This document shows, in pieces, positions 2,874 to 11,880 of a stretch of DNA of 35,945 nucleotides. The translations under genes were made by a program, and so were the position numbers. The stretch covers positions 1 through 35,945 of the forward strand of contig JALOLC010000003.1 of the NCBI GenBank assembly GCA_025456175.1. The letters are read 5' to 3'. The stretch comes from Acidobacteriota bacterium. GTDB lineage: Bacteria > Acidobacteriota > Aminicenantia > UBA2199. The notes beneath the pieces are model-generated. The model made no database searches. It was not told the origin of the DNA and was given only the letters and a program-made list of their open reading frames with translations. Position 1 is the first letter of the stretch; the number at the start of each line of letters is the position of its first letter.

Positions 2874-4178
2874 ATGGACGTCGCGCCCGACCTCTTTCCC
2901 CTCGCCGACAAGCTGCGTCCCGCGAACCTCGCGGAGTTCATCGGCCAGGAGCACCTGACCGGAAAACAGAAGGTGATCCAGTCCCTGGTGCAGGGCCGCC
3001 ACCTGGCCTCCATGATCTTCTGGGGACCGCCCGGCACGGGAAAGACCACGCTGGCCCGCATCCTGGTGCGCGAGGCCGATTATCCGGCGAGCGAGTTCTC
3101 GGCCACCGTGTCGGGCATCGCCGAGATCAAGAAGCTGATGGAGCGCTCCCAGGGGCTGCGCCAGGCGCGGCAGAAGCCGCTGGCGCTTTTCGTCGACGAG
3201 ATCCATCACTTCAACCGCAGCGTGCAGGACGCCTTCCTGCCCTATGTCGAGCGCGGCGACGTGGTGCTGCTGGGAACCACCACCGAGAACCCGGCCTACA
3301 AGATCAACCGCGCCCTGCTGTCGCGGCTGAAGATCCTGGAGCTCTTCCCCCTCAAGGAGGAGGACCTGCGGCGCATCCTGGGCAAGGCGCTGGCGTTCGT
3401 CCGCGAGCGCGCCCACGCCGACCTGCGCTTCACCCCCGAGGCCGAAGCGGTCATCGTCGGCTACGGCGGCGGCGACGGCCGCCGCCTGCTCAACCTGGTG
3501 GAGATCGTCCTGCAGACGGCCGACCTGGGCGAGCCCGTCGACGCCGCTGCCGTCCTGGACATCATCCAGAACAAGGTCGTTGGCTACGACCGCACCGGGG
3601 ACGACCGCTACCAGCTCATCTCGGCGCTGCACAAGAGCGTGCGCAACTCCGACGTCGACGCTTCCCTTTTCTGGCTGTACCGCATGCTGGCAGGGGGCGA
3701 GGACCCGCTGTACCTCCTGCGGCGCATGGTGCGCATGGCGGTGGAGGACATCGGCCTGGCCGATCCCGACGCCCTGCGCGTCTGCCTCAACGCCCGGCAG
3801 GCCTACGAGTTCCTGGGCTCTCCGGAAGGCGACCTGTTCCTCACCGAGGCGGCGGTCTACCTGGCGCTGGCGCCCAAGAGCAACGCCCTGTACGTCGCCG
3901 ACGGCAGGATGAAGAAGATCGCCGAGAAATACAGGATGCTGCCCGTGCCCCTGACGATCGTCAACCCCGACAATTTCATCGCCGCCAACAAGGGGGCCGG
4001 CCGCGGCTACATCTACGCCCACGACCTGCCCGAGAAGACGTCGCTGCTCGAGACCATGCCCGACGGCGTCAAGGAAAAGGGATTCTTCGAGCCGGGCAGC
4101 ATGGGCTTCGAGAAGCACATCCGCGAGCGCATGGCGTATTGGCGCAAGGTCAAGGACGGGCTGAAGAAAAAGGGATAG
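2874..4178 (+). CDS. rarA: Replication-associated recombination protein A (RarA/MgsA AAA+ ATPase)
   Basis: The 434-aa protein is a clamp-loader-like AAA+ ATPase acting at stalled replication forks. It opens with the family's LADKLRPANLAEFIGQEHL box. Walker A is GPPGTGKTT (about residue 51), Walker B LFVDEIHHFNR (about residue 104), sensor 1 LLGTTTENPAY and an arginine-finger region SRLKILEL follow. The C-terminal tetramerisation region contains HKSVRNSDVDASLFWLYRML and ends with the conserved GYIYAHDLPEK...GFFEPGSMGFEKHIRERMAYWR tail. Length is normal for the family. The last 66 codons (3980-4178) are repeated downstream at 5559-5757 with the first 70 bp identical, so the 3' end of this gene may itself be an exchanged segment. 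Confidence 0.96.
   Translation: MDVAPDLFPLADKLRPANLAEFIGQEHLTGKQKVIQSLVQGRHLASMIFWGPPGTGKTTLARILVREADYPASEFSATVSGIAEIKKLMERSQGLRQARQKPLALFVDEIHHFNRSVQDAFLPYVERGDVVLLGTTTENPAYKINRALLSRLKILELFPLKEEDLRRILGKALAFVRERAHADLRFTPEAEAVIVGYGGGDGRRLLNLVEIVLQTADLGEPVDAAAVLDIIQNKVVGYDRTGDDRYQLISALHKSVRNSDVDASLFWLYRMLAGGEDPLYLLRRMVRMAVEDIGLADPDALRVCLNARQAYEFLGSPEGDLFLTEAAVYLALAPKSNALYVADGRMKKIAEKYRMLPVPLTIVNPDNFIAANKGAGRGYIYAHDLPEKTSLLETMPDGVKEKGFFEPGSMGFEKHIRERMAYWRKVKDGLKKKG
3980..4178 (+). repeat. Direct repeat, proximal copy: rarA 3' end
   Basis: This 199-bp stretch aligns without gaps to 5559-5757, an offset of 1579 bp. The first 70 bp (3980-4049) are identical in the two copies. By manual count the remaining 129 bp carry 21 mismatches (about 84% identity). 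Both copies end on the same TAG stop in the same frame. Confidence 0.9.
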
Positions 4179-4334
4179 GCGCGAATCGGGCATTCATCCG
4201 GTGATCGATGGATCCTGACCTGATTGTTGTGTTGGGCGATGGTTCACGAACCGCCCTGCACATGGAAACGATTCAAAAGGGAGTTGCCAATTTGAAATTG
4301 GGTCCTAGGGCTCATGACACTGCCGCCCGGGTCC

Positions 4335-5495
4335 TTACAGCGGCAGCGCCGACAGGTCGTGGTAAGGCAGTACCTGGTAGTGGCTGCGCTTTTGAGCCTC
4401 CATTCCTCCATAGACCAGAAACCCCTTGGCGCGGGACGTTTCGTTCAAATTGTAGTAGTAATCGATCCCTTTGAAAAAGTCGCTCTGAACCGTCTGGCCG
4501 AGTTTGATCTCGACCGGCAGCTGGGTGTCGCCCTGATCGATCAGGACATCGACTTCGTTGCCGACATGATCCCTGAAAAAATACAGATTGCTGCTTTTCC
4601 CCTGGTTGGTCCGTCTTTTCAGCATTTCCGAGACGACGAAGGTTTCGAAAAGCGGTCCCTTGAGAGGGTGGCGGTCGAGCTGCCTCCGTTCCCCGATGGC
4701 GAGCAGGAAGGAGGCCAGCCCGACGTCGACAAAGTAGAGCTTGGCCGATTTGGTCAGCCGCTTTGAAAAATTACGAAAGTGCGGCGGCAGGAAGAAAAGA
4801 ATGTGGCTGGCCTCGAGCACGGTCAGCCATTGGCGGGCGGTGTTATGGTTGATGCCGCACTCGTTGGCCAGGGCCGAGGCGTTGGTGAGCTGTCCGCTCC
4901 GGGCGGCGCAGAGGCGCAGAAAGACTTCGAATGCCCGCAGGTCGCGGACGTTGAGCAGGGTGCGCACGTCCCGTTCGATGTAGGTGCTGACATAGAAGGA
5001 CAGGACCTCGCTGGGATCGAGCTTGCGGTCGAAAATGCGCGGGTAAAAACCGGCATGCAGGATCTCGCTCACCTCCACTCGCCGCCGCTTGTACAGCTCG
5101 GTGTACGACAGCGGCAGCAGGGTCAGCAGGGCGGTGCGCCCGGCCAGCGATTGGCTGACCTGGTTCATGAGCTGGAAATTCTGGCTGCCGGTCAGGATGA
5201 ACCGCCCCGGCCGCCGGTCTCCGTCCACCAGCCCCTGGATGTAGGAAGGCAATTCCGGCGCTCGCTGGAATTCATCGATCACCGCCCCTTTTTCCAGGCA
5301 GCTTTCCAGAAAGGCCTTCGGGTCTTCGAGCGCGAAGCGGCGGGTGTTGGGGTCTTCCAGGGAATAGTATTTTTTCTCGGGGAAAACGGCCCGGCACAAG
5401 GTGGTCTTGCCCGATTGGCGGGGGCCGGTCATGGTGACGACCGGGTATTGGCCCGCCAAAGAAAGCAGCTTGGAGGTTATTTCGCGCTGGATCAT
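4335..5495 (-). CDS. AAA family ATPase with C-terminal DUF4143 domain
   Basis: The 386-aa protein belongs to the widespread AAA_14/DUF4143 ATPase group, whose cellular role is not established. N-terminal ATPase: Walker A GPRQSGKTT (about residue 23), Walker B GAVIDEFQRAPEL (about residue 70), sensor FILTGSQNF (about residue 99). A helical or winged-helix middle follows (ANECGINHNTARQWLTVLE). The C-terminal DUF4143 region has FVDVGLASFLL, LFETFVVSEM and then NEVDVLID...PVEIKLG, a D-x(n)-E-x-K arrangement like that of PD-(D/E)xK nuclease folds. It runs against rarA and sits alone between two copies of the rarA 3' end. The upstream promoter has its -10 box 6 nt before the ATG and there is no ribosome binding site. 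Its flanks are AT-richer than the neighbours, consistent with transfer. Confidence 0.9.
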   Translation of the reverse strand: MIQREITSKLLSLAGQYPVVTMTGPRQSGKTTLCRAVFPEKKYYSLEDPNTRRFALEDPKAFLESCLEKGAVIDEFQRAPELPSYIQGLVDGDRRPGRFILTGSQNFQLMNQVSQSLAGRTALLTLLPLSYTELYKRRRVEVSEILHAGFYPRIFDRKLDPSEVLSFYVSTYIERDVRTLLNVRDLRAFEVFLRLCAARSGQLTNASALANECGINHNTARQWLTVLEASHILFFLPPHFRNFSKRLTKSAKLYFVDVGLASFLLAIGERRQLDRHPLKGPLFETFVVSEMLKRRTNQGKSSNLYFFRDHVGNEVDVLIDQGDTQLPVEIKLGQTVQSDFFKGIDYYYNLNETSRAKGFLVYGGMEAQKRSHYQVLPYHDLSALPL

Positions 5496-5501
5496 GATTG
5501 A

Positions 5502-5530
5502 GTAATACCATTGAGATTACAAAATGTCAA
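5502..5530 (-). promoter_or_regulatory. Sigma-70 promoter of the DUF4143 ATPase; predicts a leaderless mRNA
   Basis: On the minus strand a perfect -35 TTGACA (5525-5530) is followed after 17 bp by TATTAC (5502-5507). The six bases TCAATC then lead straight into the ATG whose A is at 5495, the predicted transcription start. No Shine-Dalgarno sequence is possible on such a transcript. Confidence 0.6.
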
Positions 5531-5558
5531 TAGAAACAGAAAATTGTAACAATCTGGC

Positions 5559-5757
5559 CGCCGCCAACAAGGGGGCCGGCCGCGGCTACATCTACGCCCA
5601 CGACCTGCCCGAGAAGACGTCGCTGCTCACTACCATGCCCGAAGGCGTCAGGGAAAAGGGTTTCTATGAGCCGGACAGCATGGGCTTCGAGAAGCACATC
5701 CGCGAGCGCATGGAATACTGGCGTAAGGTCAAGGATGGGCTGGCCAGGAAGAAATAG
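5559..5757 (+). pseudogene. Orphan duplicate of the rarA 3' end
   Basis: Sixty-six codons homologous to the RarA C-terminus (from AANKGAGRGYIYAHDLPEK to the stop) without the ATPase core. The reading frame is intact and mostly synonymous or conservative changes separate it from the full gene (PDGVKEKGFF versus PEGVREKGFY; MAYWR versus MEYWR). This indicates that it evolved as part of a functional rarA before being cut off. An ATG at 5524 in the AT-rich flank would add 12 unrelated codons (MSIETENCNNLA) and allow a 77-aa product, but no ribosome binding site precedes it, so translation is doubtful. It is best read as a displaced gene end, i.e. one arm of the direct repeat that flanks the ATPase islet. 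Confidence 0.85.
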
Positions 5758-5829
5758 GAATCAGGCGCTGGACGCTCGACGATGGCCAGAAGAAGAGAAG
5801 GCCATAACCGATACGGTTCGTGCTGACGG
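5758..5829. other. Intergenic gap with weak GACG/ACGG repeats and a hairpin
   Basis: The short gap between the rarA remnant and the amidohydrolase stop has ATGGCC...GGCCAT (a 6-bp stem around a purine loop) flanked by GACGCTC-GACGATG on one side and ATACGGT and TGACGGC on the other. These resemble the heptamers at 11601-11880. It could also act as a weak terminator between convergent units; no T-tract is present. Confidence 0.3.
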
Positions 5830-7104
5830 CTAGCGTCTGCTGTCCAATCCCTGAGACTCACGGCGGCGCAGCCGTTCGCGGACGATCATCAGGTATTTGT
5901 CGCGCAGGCGGGTCTGGATACTGGTCAGGGGGATCAGGCGACCACGGATGATCACGGCGCGGATCTTGGCGCTGAGCTGCAGCAGCGGTTTCGAGCAGAC
6001 GACGACGTCGGCGGTCTTCCCCTTTTCCAGCGAACCCACCAGGTGATCGATCCCGAGGATCCTGGCCGGGTTTATCGTCAGCGCCCGCAGCGCCTCCTCC
6101 TCGGAGAGGCCGTAGGCGACCGATATGGCCGCCGGAACCGGCTGCCGGCGGACGCCGCGGCTCCCCTGACCGCGGCTCTCGTTGAAGCAGAACAGCACCC
6201 CCTTCTCGGCCAGGACGGCGGCCACATGGTAGTTCAGGTCGACCGCTTCCCAGCGCCTGGGGAGCGCCGTGGTCCCGCTCCAGATGACCGGGATCCCTTT
6301 TTGGGCGAGCGCCTCGGCGTATTTCAGCACATCGGCGGAGGCGCTAGCGATGATCCCCCTGAGGGAAAACTCGTTGATCAGGGTCAGGGCCAGGCGGATG
6401 CTGACCTCATCGCCGCACTGGAACAAGACCGGCATCTTGCGATTCAGCACCGGCTGCAGAGCCTCCATCTCCGCATCGCGTTCGCGGTTCTTCCCGCTTT
6501 CCCCTTTTGCTCCGTATTCCCTGGCCTTGGAGAGTTTCTCGCGCAGGAACTGCAGGACTCCCGGCAGAGTGCTGGGGTAGGAATTGGCCTGGCGGGCGGT
6601 GGTGTTGAACACCAGCAGGACGTTGCGCTTCAGGATCATCTCCGTGGCCAGGTTGCCGTCGAGGTGGATGACCACCGCCTTGCCGTTGATCAGGCTGCCG
6701 GTCCCCGCCGCCGTCAGCGCGGTGGTGACCCCGTCGATGCGGGCGACCTCGATCGAATCGTCCTCCGGGTTCAGCGCATCGTAGGGGTCGATCTGGGGGA
6801 CCGACAATCCCTTTTCATTGATGTCGCTGTCCGAACCGGGGGGATTGATCAGGCCGAGCGCGGTCAGCGGCGCCACCATCCCCGGGTAGACGTACTGCCC
6901 GCTGGCATCGAGAACCATGGCTGCGGCCGGAGCCGCCAGTCCGGTGCCGATGGCGGAGATTTTTCCCTTTTCGATCAACAGGTCGCCGCCTGGGATCGGC
7001 GCACCGACCACCGGGACGATCGTGCCGTTGCGGATCAGAATGGCCTCCTGGGTGAAGACCGGGACGGCGGACAGAACCAGCAATATGGCTGCGGCTGTTT
7101 TCAT
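5830..7104 (-). CDS. Secreted amidohydrolase-family protein lacking the canonical metal ligands
   Basis: The 424-aa protein begins with a signal peptide (MKTAAAILLVLSAVPVFTQ) and has the composite beta-sandwich of metal-dependent amidohydrolases: an N-terminal ILIRNGTIVPV strand, GGDLLIEKGKISAIG, and a C-terminal ALTINPARILGIDHLVGSLEKGKTADVVV segment. Where active relatives have a His-x-His motif after the PG, this protein has YPGMVAPLTALGL. Where the later His and Asp ligands would be, it has FQCGDEVSIRLALT and LFCFNESRG. It is therefore probably not a classical hydrolase of this superfamily; it may be a partner subunit. Its ATG overlaps the stop of the upstream amidohydrolase gene (ATGA, 7101-7104), implying translational coupling and perhaps a hetero-oligomer. 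Confidence 0.85.
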   Translation of the reverse strand: MKTAAAILLVLSAVPVFTQEAILIRNGTIVPVVGAPIPGGDLLIEKGKISAIGTGLAAPAAAMVLDASGQYVYPGMVAPLTALGLINPPGSDSDINEKGLSVPQIDPYDALNPEDDSIEVARIDGVTTALTAAGTGSLINGKAVVIHLDGNLATEMILKRNVLLVFNTTARQANSYPSTLPGVLQFLREKLSKAREYGAKGESGKNRERDAEMEALQPVLNRKMPVLFQCGDEVSIRLALTLINEFSLRGIIASASADVLKYAEALAQKGIPVIWSGTTALPRRWEAVDLNYHVAAVLAEKGVLFCFNESRGQGSRGVRRQPVPAAISVAYGLSEEEALRALTINPARILGIDHLVGSLEKGKTADVVVCSKPLLQLSAKIRAVIIRGRLIPLTSIQTRLRDKYLMIVRERLRRRESQGLDSRR

Positions 7105-8363
7105 TGTCTGCCTCCTTGTGCCGGCGCGCTCACCCCTTCCCGGGCCAGGTCAAAAAAAACCTCCCCCTCGATGATGGTCATGATGCATTTGCAGGTCGAA
7201 TCGAGCGGATGCCTGTCGAAGACGGCAACATCCCCGTCTTTTCCCACTTCCAAACTGCCGATGCGCTGGTCCAGCTCCAGCGATTTGGCCGGATTGATGG
7301 TGATCATCCTGAGCACCGCATCGTCGGACAGGTCGTTGTACTTCTGCACCTTGGCCGCGTTGAGGAAAAGGTATCGCCCCTCGTCGGCCGAGTCGGAGTT
7401 GATCGCGATGTTCACTCCCGCCTCGTCCAGGATGGAGAAGCCGAAGGGGTTGCCGTCATAGGCCTCCTCCTTGAATCCCCACCAGTCGCTCCAGCCGCCG
7501 AAGGTGACGCCGGATCGGGCCAGCAGGTCGGCTACCTTGTACCCGTCCACGCAATGGCTGATCTGCATGGGGACGATGTCGAACTCGCGGCAGAAGGCCA
7601 GAAACCACTCGATCTCGTCGGCGCGGTAGATGTGGCAGTCGATGGTCATTTTTTTTTCCAGCACCCGTTTCAGGGTTTCCCAGCGCAGGTCCCGGGCCGG
7701 GGGCTTGACCTCCTTTTTCCCGCTGGCGCGGGCTTTTTCGTATTCATCCCACTTGGCTTTGTATTCCCGGGCCTCGCTGAAGGCTTTGCGGGCCACCCAG
7801 GCGGTGCCGCCGCGGGTGGAGGGCGATCGCCCCTTGTCCCCGTGCAGCCGCTTGGGGTTTTCACCCAGCGCCATTTTGAGCTGCGGCCGTCCGTCGCTGA
7901 CGATGAGCTCCTCGGGAAGACGGCCGTATTTCAGCTTGAGCACCACGTTGACTCCGCCGATCACGTTGGCGCTGCCATGCATGGTCTTGACGGTGGTTAC
8001 TCCGCCAGCCAGGGTCGTGCGGATGGTGTCGTGATCGGAGACCACGATGTCCTTCATCCAGATCTGCGGTGTGACCGGATCGGTCGCCTCATTGATGTCG
8101 CTCATGTCCATGGCGATGTGGGTGTGGCTGTCGATCAGTCCGGGCATGATGAATCGGCCCGTGACGTCGATCACCGGAACGCCGGCGGGGATGACTACAT
8201 CCTTGCCGACGGCGGTGATCTTTCCCTTCTGAATCAGGACGGTGCCGTTGTCCACGATTCCCCTGGTGATCGTCAGGACCGTTCCGCCCTTGAGGGCGAC
8301 ATCCTGCGCCGCCGCCACCGAGCCAAGCGACAGCAGCAACAAACCCGCCATTCCCATGCGCAT
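7101..8363 (-). CDS. Secreted metal-dependent amidohydrolase (imidazolonepropionase/prolidase-like)
   Basis: The 420-aa protein starts with a signal peptide (MRMGMAGLLLLSLGSVAAAQ) and shows an intact amidohydrolase layout: GTVLIQKGKITAVGKDV, then FIMPGLIDSHTHIAMDM with the His-x-His metal site (about residue 80), later histidines in DCHIYRADE and ISHCVDGYK, and the catalytic Asp in NIAINSDSAD (about residue 330). The C-terminal ITINPAKSLELDQRIGSLEVGKDGDVAVF is standard. Family members cleave cyclic amides or C-N bonds, sometimes dipeptides; the substrate here is unknown. It is the first gene of a two-gene unit with the degenerate paralogue. An AGGAGG sequence lies 5 nt before the start, and a TTGACT-18-TATACC promoter lies upstream. 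Confidence 0.9.
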   Translation of the reverse strand: MRMGMAGLLLLSLGSVAAAQDVALKGGTVLTITRGIVDNGTVLIQKGKITAVGKDVVIPAGVPVIDVTGRFIMPGLIDSHTHIAMDMSDINEATDPVTPQIWMKDIVVSDHDTIRTTLAGGVTTVKTMHGSANVIGGVNVVLKLKYGRLPEELIVSDGRPQLKMALGENPKRLHGDKGRSPSTRGGTAWVARKAFSEAREYKAKWDEYEKARASGKKEVKPPARDLRWETLKRVLEKKMTIDCHIYRADEIEWFLAFCREFDIVPMQISHCVDGYKVADLLARSGVTFGGWSDWWGFKEEAYDGNPFGFSILDEAGVNIAINSDSADEGRYLFLNAAKVQKYNDLSDDAVLRMITINPAKSLELDQRIGSLEVGKDGDVAVFDRHPLDSTCKCIMTIIEGEVFFDLAREGVSAPAQGGRQ

Positions 8364-8424: not shown

Positions 8425-8494
8425 CACCGGCAGGGTTTCTTCTCTACTGCCCGCTCCTGTTGTTTTGGTTTTGCCAGTATGGTACTTTCTACGT

Positions 8495-8869
8495 ATGTAC
8501 ATGCAACTGCTGCCGGCGGCGCTGGATGACATCGCCGTCCTGCGCGCTTGCGGCTTTCGCGGCGCGGGCCTGCTGCTGGGCTCTGAAATCGGCCGCATGG
8601 TCCTGATCGAGCGCTTGCTGCCCCTGGATTTCGACCGCCGCCGCGCCAACGCTGTCTATGGCGCGGCCCATGAGAAATACAAGGAAAAGCTGCGGGGCGT
8701 GTTCTTCTGCCGCAAACCCCCTTTCGCCGCCGACGGGTTCATCGGTGACCTGGCGCTGGCCATCCGGGCCATGGCCATCCAGCCGTTCACGTGCGAATTC
8801 GCCGCCGCGAAAAAGAAGGCGCAGCTGACCCCTCTGCCTGAGGACGCGGAGGCAGCATGGCCGAGTTGA
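8495..8869 (+). CDS. Small hypothetical protein upstream of AMMECR1-like gene
   Basis: The 124-aa soluble protein is not recognised. It has a GAGLLLGSEIGRMVLIERLLPLDF segment followed by LRGVFFCRKPPFAADGF. This order (hydrophobic strand with GLLLG, a strand, then GVFF plus D) recalls the first half of a JAB/MPN fold without its His-x-His zinc site, but the match is only suggestive. It overlaps the next gene by 13 bp, so the two are translationally linked. The start chosen (ATG 8495, MYMQLLP) lies 6 nt after a possible -10 TACTTT, itself 17 bp from TTGTTT. An alternative in-frame start at 8465 would sit inside that promoter. Confidence 0.65.
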   Translation: MYMQLLPAALDDIAVLRACGFRGAGLLLGSEIGRMVLIERLLPLDFDRRRANAVYGAAHEKYKEKLRGVFFCRKPPFAADGFIGDLALAIRAMAIQPFTCEFAAAKKKAQLTPLPEDAEAAWPS

Positions 8870-9426
8870 GCGCAGCGGAAAGGCAGGAGCTCCTGGCCCT
8901 GGCCAGGGATGCCATCCGCAAGTGCCTGACCGCGGCGAAGCGCGGCGCCCCGCCCGCTCCCCCCGCTGCGCCCGCCTTCATGGAAAAGCGCGGGGTCTTC
9001 GTCACCCTGCACCGCGGCGGCGAGCTGCGCGGCTGCATCGGCTATCCGCTGCCCATGAAGCCGCTGTGGGAAGCGGTGGCCGAGATGGCCGTCGCCGCCG
9101 CCTTCGAGGACCCGCGCTTCCCCGCCGTCGGCCAGGACGAGCTGGCCGGGCTGGACATCGAGATCTCGGTCCTGACCGTGCCGCGCAAGGTCGCCGGTCC
9201 CGATGACGTCCGCGTAGGCACCGACGGCATCATCGTCAGCAAGGGGCTGCAGCGCGGGCTGCTCCTGCCCCAGGTGCCGCTGGAGCAGGGCTGGGACCGC
9301 GAGCAGTACCTCGCCTGCGGCTGCCGCAAGGCGGGGCTGCCCGCCGACGAATGGAAGCGGGGAGTGCAGATCGAGACCTTCCAGGCGGTCGTGTTCGGCG
9401 AAAAAAAGCACCGGGAGGGACCATGA
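8857..9426 (+). CDS. amrA: AMMECR1-domain protein (AmmeMemoRadiSam system protein A family)
   Basis: The 189-aa protein has the AMMECR1 hallmark ELRGCIGYPLPMKPLWEAV (about residues 52-70), preceded by GVFVTL and followed by AAAFEDPRFPAVGQDEL, LDIEISVLTVPRKV, GLLLPQVPLEQGWDREQYL and CRKAGLPADEW. All are standard blocks of the family, which is usually found with a Memo-like dioxygenase (AmrB) and a radical-SAM protein (AmrS); its biochemical role is unresolved. Neither partner is in this window. Its stop overlaps the start of yjbQ (ATGA). Confidence 0.92.
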   Translation: MAELSAAERQELLALARDAIRKCLTAAKRGAPPAPPAAPAFMEKRGVFVTLHRGGELRGCIGYPLPMKPLWEAVAEMAVAAAFEDPRFPAVGQDELAGLDIEISVLTVPRKVAGPDDVRVGTDGIIVSKGLQRGLLLPQVPLEQGWDREQYLACGCRKAGLPADEWKRGVQIETFQAVVFGEKKHREGP

Positions 9427-9827
9427 GCAGCTACCAGGCCTTCGAGATCAGGACGACGGAGAAGATCCAGTTCGTCGACATCACAACCCGGGTGCGGGAG
9501 ATGCTCCGCGCCGGCAAGTGCGGCTCCGGCATCCTGCTGGTCTTCACGCCGCACACCACCGCCGCCGTGACCATCAACGAGAACGCCGACCCGGCCGTGC
9601 CGCAGGACATCGGCGAGTTCCTCAGGCGCCTGGTCCCGGCCCAGGACCAATTCCGTCACCGCGAGGGCAACTCGCCGGCGCACATCATGTCCAGCCTGGT
9701 GGGTGCCTCGGAGACCCTGGTCGTCGGCAACGGTGAACCGATCCTCGGTTCCTGGCAGGGGATATTCTTCTGCGAGTTCGATGGCCCGCGCCAGCGCCGG
9801 GTCTTCCTGAAATTCATCCCGGGCTGA
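9423..9827 (+). CDS. yjbQ: YjbQ-family protein (UPF0047; secondary thiamine-phosphate synthase enzyme)
   Basis: The 134-aa protein is a complete YjbQ/UPF0047 member. The conserved FTPHTTAAVTINENADPAV, RHREGNSPAHI and GSWQGIFFCEFDGPRQRRV blocks are all present, including the His and Asn/Glu residues of the putative active site. E. coli YjbQ has weak thiamine-phosphate synthase activity and its true role is uncertain. Start codon ATG 9423 lies in an ATGA overlap with the AMMECR1 gene; an upstream in-frame ATG would extend into that gene and is not supported by the family's N-terminus. Confidence 0.93.
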   Translation: MSSYQAFEIRTTEKIQFVDITTRVREMLRAGKCGSGILLVFTPHTTAAVTINENADPAVPQDIGEFLRRLVPAQDQFRHREGNSPAHIMSSLVGASETLVVGNGEPILGSWQGIFFCEFDGPRQRRVFLKFIPG

Positions 9828-11611: not shown

Positions 11612-11880
11612 CGCGTAACGCGTGACAAGAGACGAGAAGAGGCACTCGGCGTGAGGTTGACGGCTGACGGCGTACGGTAAAACAGCGTAACGACCTCAGG
11701 GAAGAGAAAGGGAAGAGAGGGTGGGAAAAGCCTTCTCAGTGCTTTTTCTTTCTCACTTTGTCTTCCCTTTGTCTTTCTCTCTGACTTCCCTCTATCTTCC
11801 CTGAAGTTTCAAAAACTGTGCCGAGTTTAATGAAGGCTCGTATTTGCTCTTGCCGTCCACCGTGTGCCGTTCGCCGTTTG
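11601..11880. repeat. Composite intergenic repeat: heptamers in inverted arms around a purine/pyrimidine hairpin
   Basis: The left arm consists of in-phase 7-mers from 11601 (GTGACGC, GTGACGC, GTAACGC, GTGACAA, GAGACGA) and again from 11657 (TTGACGG, CTGACGG, CGTACGG). The right arm (11852-11879) has four 7-mers in the opposite orientation: GCCGTCC, ACCGTGT, GCCGTTC, GCCGTTT. Between them is a purine-rich strand (11696-11739) facing a pyrimidine-rich one (11743-11804). Perfect 10-bp pairs are TCAGGGAAGA 11696-11705 with TCTTCCCTGA 11795-11804, and AAAGGGAAGA 11707-11716 with TCTTCCCTTT 11761-11770. No gene is seen in this 354-bp gap. Confidence 0.65.

Follow-up and report, generated by a model that had tools for sequence, protein, structure and literature searches.

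Small genes for defence or toxins turn up in chromosomes where no transposon or integrase is to be seen, and their mode of entry is poorly documented. In the minimal mobile elements of Neisseria, conserved genes bracket accessory genes that are exchanged with no integrase involved, as at the locus described here, although tail duplication of the kind seen here is not known to be part of the definition of those elements. When E. coli was given non-replicating DNA, single crossovers of circularised molecules produced partial duplications of 109-950 bp, with 56 of 60 clones scored as duplications (PMC3240628). There, as here, a variable-size partial duplication of the homologous locus surrounds the inserted DNA, but those molecules were laboratory plasmids, whereas the cassettes considered below are natural, lie at many housekeeping genes and have been kept over speciation. 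In the T6SS immunity arrays of Vibrio and in Rhs orphan tails, a new 3′ end enters together with its cargo at the conserved 5′ part of a gene and displaces the old 3′ end downstream, repeated rounds giving rise to arrays (PMC5361080); in those systems selection acts on the tail, which is polymorphic, whereas here one tail is an orthologue equivalent to the other and the novelty lies in the cargo. The mobile endonuclease ORFs of fungal mitochondria (atp6, cox2 and nad3) show the same order of gene, inserted tail, nuclease gene and displaced tail, but they reside in organelles and encode LAGLIDADG or GIY-YIG enzymes (PMC3630166), whereas the nuclease gene at our locus encodes a DUF4143 ATPase-nuclease of putative cleavage activity and most comparable islets lack DUF4143 altogether. 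Target-regenerating genomic islands (PMC4383910) likewise carry a regenerated target and a displaced fragment at their ends, but the islet described here has one or few genes and neither an integrase nor a fixed att core.

Structure of the rarA locus

The window, by which we mean the whole 35,945-nucleotide stretch of DNA that was analysed, belongs to a metagenome-assembled Aminicenantia genome (G000; 188 contigs, 73.5% complete), which among named relatives is closest to Candidatus Aminicenantes. Its full-length rarA gene is followed by a second copy of its own 3′ end (Table 1). The two copies align over 199 bp without gaps at an offset of 1579 bp, each in frame and each ending at a stop codon, and the match (E ~6e-74) far exceeds chance resemblance. 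No mismatch falls within the first 70 positions and 21 fall within the last 129, exactly as the original prediction had counted them; because this placement has a probability of only 6e-5 if mismatches are spread evenly, the copies are mosaic. The rarA genes of relatives differ at 8 to 21 of those first 70 positions, so the identity there is not mere conservation, and bases common to the two window tails are not found together in any relative, which indicates that both tails originated in this lineage or in one close to it. As had also been claimed, the rest of rarA is absent upstream of the distal copy, apart from a likeness that may reach some 10 bp to the left of 5559.

Table 1. Features of the rarA locus in the window
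Feature	Position	Strand	Basis
rarA (MgsA/RarA AAA+ ATPase), full length, target gene	2874..4178	+	Pfam MgsA_C 2.8e-52; 77-85% protein identity to same-genus relatives
Proximal rarA tail, within the intact gene	3980..4178	+	Alignment of copies
Spacer, rarA stop to end of DUF4143 gene	4179..4334	.	Not found behind rarA in relatives
AAA_14-DUF4143 ATPase with PD-(D/E)XK motif, PADLOC candidate family PDC-S01	4335..5495	-	Pfam 1.5e-48 and 1.4e-27; PADLOC 4e-103
Promoter-like TTGACA-17-TATTAC directly upstream of DUF4143 gene	5502..5530	-	Read by eye
Displaced distal rarA tail, own stop codon at end	5559..5757	+	Alignment of copies
Accessory amidohydrolase 1, same inserted block	5830..7104	-	Close match in just a single other genome of the genus
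Accessory amidohydrolase 2, same inserted block	7101..8363	-	Comparison with relatives
Anchor region, adjoining rarA directly in most relatives	8460..9827	+	Comparison with relatives

Relatives supply the empty site that a Campbell-type insertion should leave. Wherever the site is readable in same-genus Aminicenantes genomes (in a few the contig ends too early), a deoxyhypusine-synthase-like gene and rarA are followed by a single rarA tail, and the islet was found in none of them. No DUF4143 gene, close amidohydrolase relative or full second rarA copy was seen at these rarA loci, and the predicted insertion at the rarA 3′ end is thereby supported. In most relatives the homologue of the window from 8460 to 9000 onward comes ~70 to 900 bp after rarA, and it follows that 4179 to ~8459 has been inserted. 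Judged by this comparison of sequences, the insertion contains, besides the DUF4143 gene and the displaced tail, two accessory amidohydrolases, the first of which is counted as accessory because it has a close match in only one other genus member. The cargo had been described as a single minus-strand ATPase gene; this holds for the interval between the two tails, but the insertion as a whole reaches further. A third rarA tail was sought beyond the amidohydrolases and was not found, and no integrase or recombinase lies between rarA and the anchor region. In two relatives (G010 and G012) a Gld-like ABC transporter operon separates rarA from an AMMECR1-like gene (L129 4748-10431; L133 6893-12781), and the content of this interval therefore varies across the genus. 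In another (G011:C219; L048/L130), the rarA frame is interrupted close to codon 360; the assembly has low coverage, and a sequencing error may be the cause.

The DUF4143 ATPase-nuclease gene

The protein encoded between the tails contains AAA_14 and DUF4143 domains. Its Walker residues are conserved in 70 homologues, and the PD-(D/E)XK residues E284, E314-x-D316 and E329-x-K331 are present in 94-100% of these sequences. By sequence match and motif, it is a PD-(D/E)XK nuclease protein of the defence candidate family PDC-S01. The passages on PDC-S01 in PMC12988326 rank this fusion of an ATPase to a PD-(D/E)XK domain as the fourth commonest defence across prokaryotes, state that it, like most such candidates, still awaits validation, and do not describe how these genes enter chromosomes. 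We consider it probable that the window gene is an anti-phage gene. A search of solved structures with the ATPase sequence returned a single, weak match, to the DotB ATPase; a single-sequence structure model was poor (mean pLDDT 35) and was not used, and no relative was found on viral contigs.

Close DUF4143 relatives occupy unrelated places in different species, and their homology is limited to the gene and 40-90 bp upstream, where a TTGACA-type promoter and palindrome-like elements are located. The corresponding element in the window escaped the promoter scan because the last base of its -10 hexamer is off consensus. Often a palindrome covers the -10 region, e.g. at L138 and L200 (ATGGAATATATTCCAT; AATTTATCCGGATAAATT), which suggests that the gene may be an autoregulated, self-contained unit. 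Copy number is patchy, from 0 to 15 per genus genome.

Recurrence of the scar behind other genes

The arrangement at rarA is one of a series. Among 66 loci of the genus and family, with positives curated by hand, 9 of the 47 genus DUF4143 genes sit between the 3′ end of a gene and a displaced copy of the same end, compared with 4 of 672 control genes taken from contigs picked without regard to DUF4143 (p=6e-9, from draft genomes of a single genus with mechanically called ORFs). The nine scarred genes are rarA, methylmalonyl-CoA mutase (mcm), a phosphodiesterase, queH, ftsZ, a phosphoglycerate-mutase-like (pgm-like) gene, asparaginase, a HEAT-repeat gene and mutS. In the window genome alone, three of six DUF4143 genes are scarred, at rarA (199 bp), methylmalonyl-CoA mutase (127 bp) and the phosphodiesterase (36 bp). 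All nine scars lie within the genus: none was found at 23 DUF4143 genes of other genera in the family, nor a clear case among 30 loci of more distant lineages. All nine involve 3′ ends, with homology stopping at the stop codon or just past it; the few candidates for displaced gene heads were mostly antisense readings of tails. The left edges vary, giving copies of 33 to 273 bp, and the tails have no evident common motif and derive from many unrelated targets.

Displaced tails are not confined to DUF4143 genes. The cargo at glcD is a HEPN/MNT pair with a DUF3795 gene, at an sdhB/frdB-like gene a PIN gene, at mutS a T5orf172/DUF4041 nuclease with an M23 peptidase, at asparaginase a secreted protein, and at a short tyrosine recombinase gene a zeta-toxin-like gene, beyond which the displaced tail of the recombinase gene lies (159 bp, 97%; L213 1977-3540, G007:C29). 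Many of these cargos are toxin-antitoxin or defence-like, and most asparaginase tails flank cargo without DUF4143, which weakens the case for DUF4143 as the sole driver. Displaced tails of asparaginase and mutS occur in several species, and serial tails were read directly at mcm, mutS and glcD; match coordinates place four asparaginase tails on one contig (G007:C99). Because the same scar stands behind many unrelated genes and encloses many cargos, the notion of rarA as a dedicated, site-specific target must be abandoned.

The remaining 38 of the 47 genus DUF4143 genes have no tail copy, and no short target duplication was found at the remaining DUF4143 loci. At the pgm-like gene, G006 has the same DUF4143 gene as G007, yet lacks the displaced tail. 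The pgm-DUF4143 block is 95% identical in L210 (G007:C79) and L211 (G006:C67), and immediately after DUF4143 the G007 sequence is 3.0 kb longer (2910-5949 versus 873-875 in G006); this additional DNA holds the displaced pgm-like tail and an 864-aa ORF, and either a deletion or an insertion could account for it. At L195 (G005:C141, 3168-5466), a second DUF4143 gene has been inserted beside a first that is orthologous to the one at L139 (G000:C31).

Decay of displaced tails

When sites that differ between copies were polarised by a vote of relatives, 55 changes fell in displaced copies and 37 in intact genes. Third codon positions account for 22 of the 55 (40%) but 28 of the 37 (76%; p=0.001), and displaced tails are therefore under no coding constraint. 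At rarA the vote assigned 7 changes to the displaced copy and 2 to the intact gene, with 12 unclear. In G008, the majority of asparaginase changes likewise lie in the displaced copy, and the two copies diverge on both sides of an identical middle. At mutS the two copies show about the same amount of change, so a diverged tail may have been imported there. The suggestion that rarA is a crossover hybrid is thus only partly borne out: a Campbell-type single crossover remains our preferred event, but the polarised changes lie mostly in the displaced copy and do not point to a foreign proximal tail.

Mechanism of entry

We propose, with a probability of roughly 0.55, that the islet is an acquired one-gene cassette and that it entered when a fragment bearing a rarA tail and the cargo integrated by a RecA-type, Campbell-like single crossover. 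The donor would be a fragment from the same or a related species, with a rarA tail and a cassette made up of the promoter-like element and DUF4143, and end joining would most likely have circularised it. A single Campbell-like recombination with the resident rarA tail would leave rarA at full length with the cassette behind it, then the junction made by end joining, ragged on its left edge, and last the old tail, which persists as non-coding DNA; further rounds would build the series gene-cargo-tail-cargo-tail. The process would be general in the genus and not specific to rarA. Such a crossover accounts for the intact gene, the cargo, the ragged-left displaced tail, the loss of homology after the stop codon, the arrays and the confinement to 3′ ends, since only there does one crossover keep the target gene whole and in place. 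At rarA the homologous segment stands in direct repeat on either side of the insert, and left edges of 33 to 273 bp are what ragged fragment ends, and not fixed att sites, should give. We infer the single crossover, the circularisation and the uptake route; ComEC is found in 11 of the 16 genomes. Against this proposal, if the donor tail is diverged, the copies should differ to the left as well as to the right of the exchange, yet the left 70 bp at rarA are identical; a plain Campbell crossover would need gene conversion over this tract or a chance identity there. In addition, the restriction of DUF4143 homology to the gene and its 40-90 bp upstream region is tighter than random fragments would give, and no donor molecule was seen. 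The DUF4143 genes without tails and the pgm-like site of G006 imply that tails are lost or that another mode of entry exists.

The left identity and right divergence at rarA follow directly if linear DNA entered during transformation by homology-facilitated illegitimate recombination, one end pairing with the gene and the other being joined illegitimately just upstream of the point of pairing, so that the resident tail stays behind with no circle involved; the left 70 bp would then be host sequence in both copies. Such a process has been proposed for the Vibrio T6SS and Rhs orphan tails (PMC5361080), and ComEC would suit it, but it is expected to give deletions, and rarely, the E. coli duplications arose from circles (PMC3240628), and the G008 asparaginase copies differ on both sides of their identical middle. 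We consider this route rather unlikely, and much the same is true of homing, in which the DUF4143 ATPase-nuclease would cut an uninterrupted gene near its 3′ end and repair would copy the nuclease gene, together with a substitute for the tail, into the break. The anatomy is that of the Allomyces atp6 and Glomus hybrids, with gene, inserted C-terminus, nuclease ORF and displaced native C-terminus (PMC3630166); the insert contains a nuclease gene with a conserved PD-(D/E)XK motif (a motif-level indication of putative activity), and the strong enrichment of DUF4143 at scars and its patchy copy number fit as well. Homing is disfavoured, since the cargo beside the majority of displaced tails is of other kinds (most asparaginase tails, and the HEPN/MNT, PIN, zeta and secreted-protein islets); moreover, no clear scar was found at the DUF4143 loci surveyed outside the genus, and while several pairs of close DUF4143 relatives sit at different targets, the pgm site common to G006 and G007 fits descent. 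A related idea, which we regard as improbable, is that PDC-S01 genes mobilise themselves, each as a unit of one gene with its own promoter and stop codon as boundaries, and that their nuclease cuts gene 3′ ends and thereby makes breaks that admit other cassettes too.

Three further accounts appear very improbable. In one, a segment containing rarA was duplicated in tandem, after which the gene body was deleted and the islet captured; this agrees with the direct order of the copies and with the mostly derived state of the displaced one, but it demands two coincident events per gene at many genes, with the tail always left and accessory cargo always between. If a recombinase used gene tails as att sites and the islet were a mini-island, the regenerated gene and displaced fragment would be the hallmark described for islands in tRNA genes (PMC4383910), but the window islet has no recombinase, and no constant att core is seen among tails of varying length and unrelated origin. 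An assembly artefact that joined strains in a metagenome bin is conceivable in so fragmented a genome, but a 70 bp exact repeat is rather short to have caused chimerism, at least six genome bins of the genus contain arrangements of this kind, and the displaced asparaginase tail is common to G001 and G015 by descent.

Displaced gene tails are a readable scar of entry by which gains can be counted in uncultured bacteria, and, if the model holds, their order gives polarity, the newest tail lying next to the gene. Short gene-end fragments in assemblies can be integration scars rather than errors. Should the self-mobilising reading of DUF4143 be true, one of the commonest defence candidates would be a bacterial counterpart of the mobile endonuclease ORFs of mitochondria.

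Other repeats at the surveyed loci

Flanking repeats at L185, L188, L197, L225, L226 and L233-L235 were judged likely to be dispersed or intergenic and were not counted as gene tails. At L242 (3246-4521), a DUF1016/YhcG PD-(D/E)XK nuclease gene is flanked by a 101-bp, 96% direct repeat. A purine-rich intergenic repeat at 11640-11810 of the window resembles the spacer that follows rarA in G003 (L119 2940-3123).
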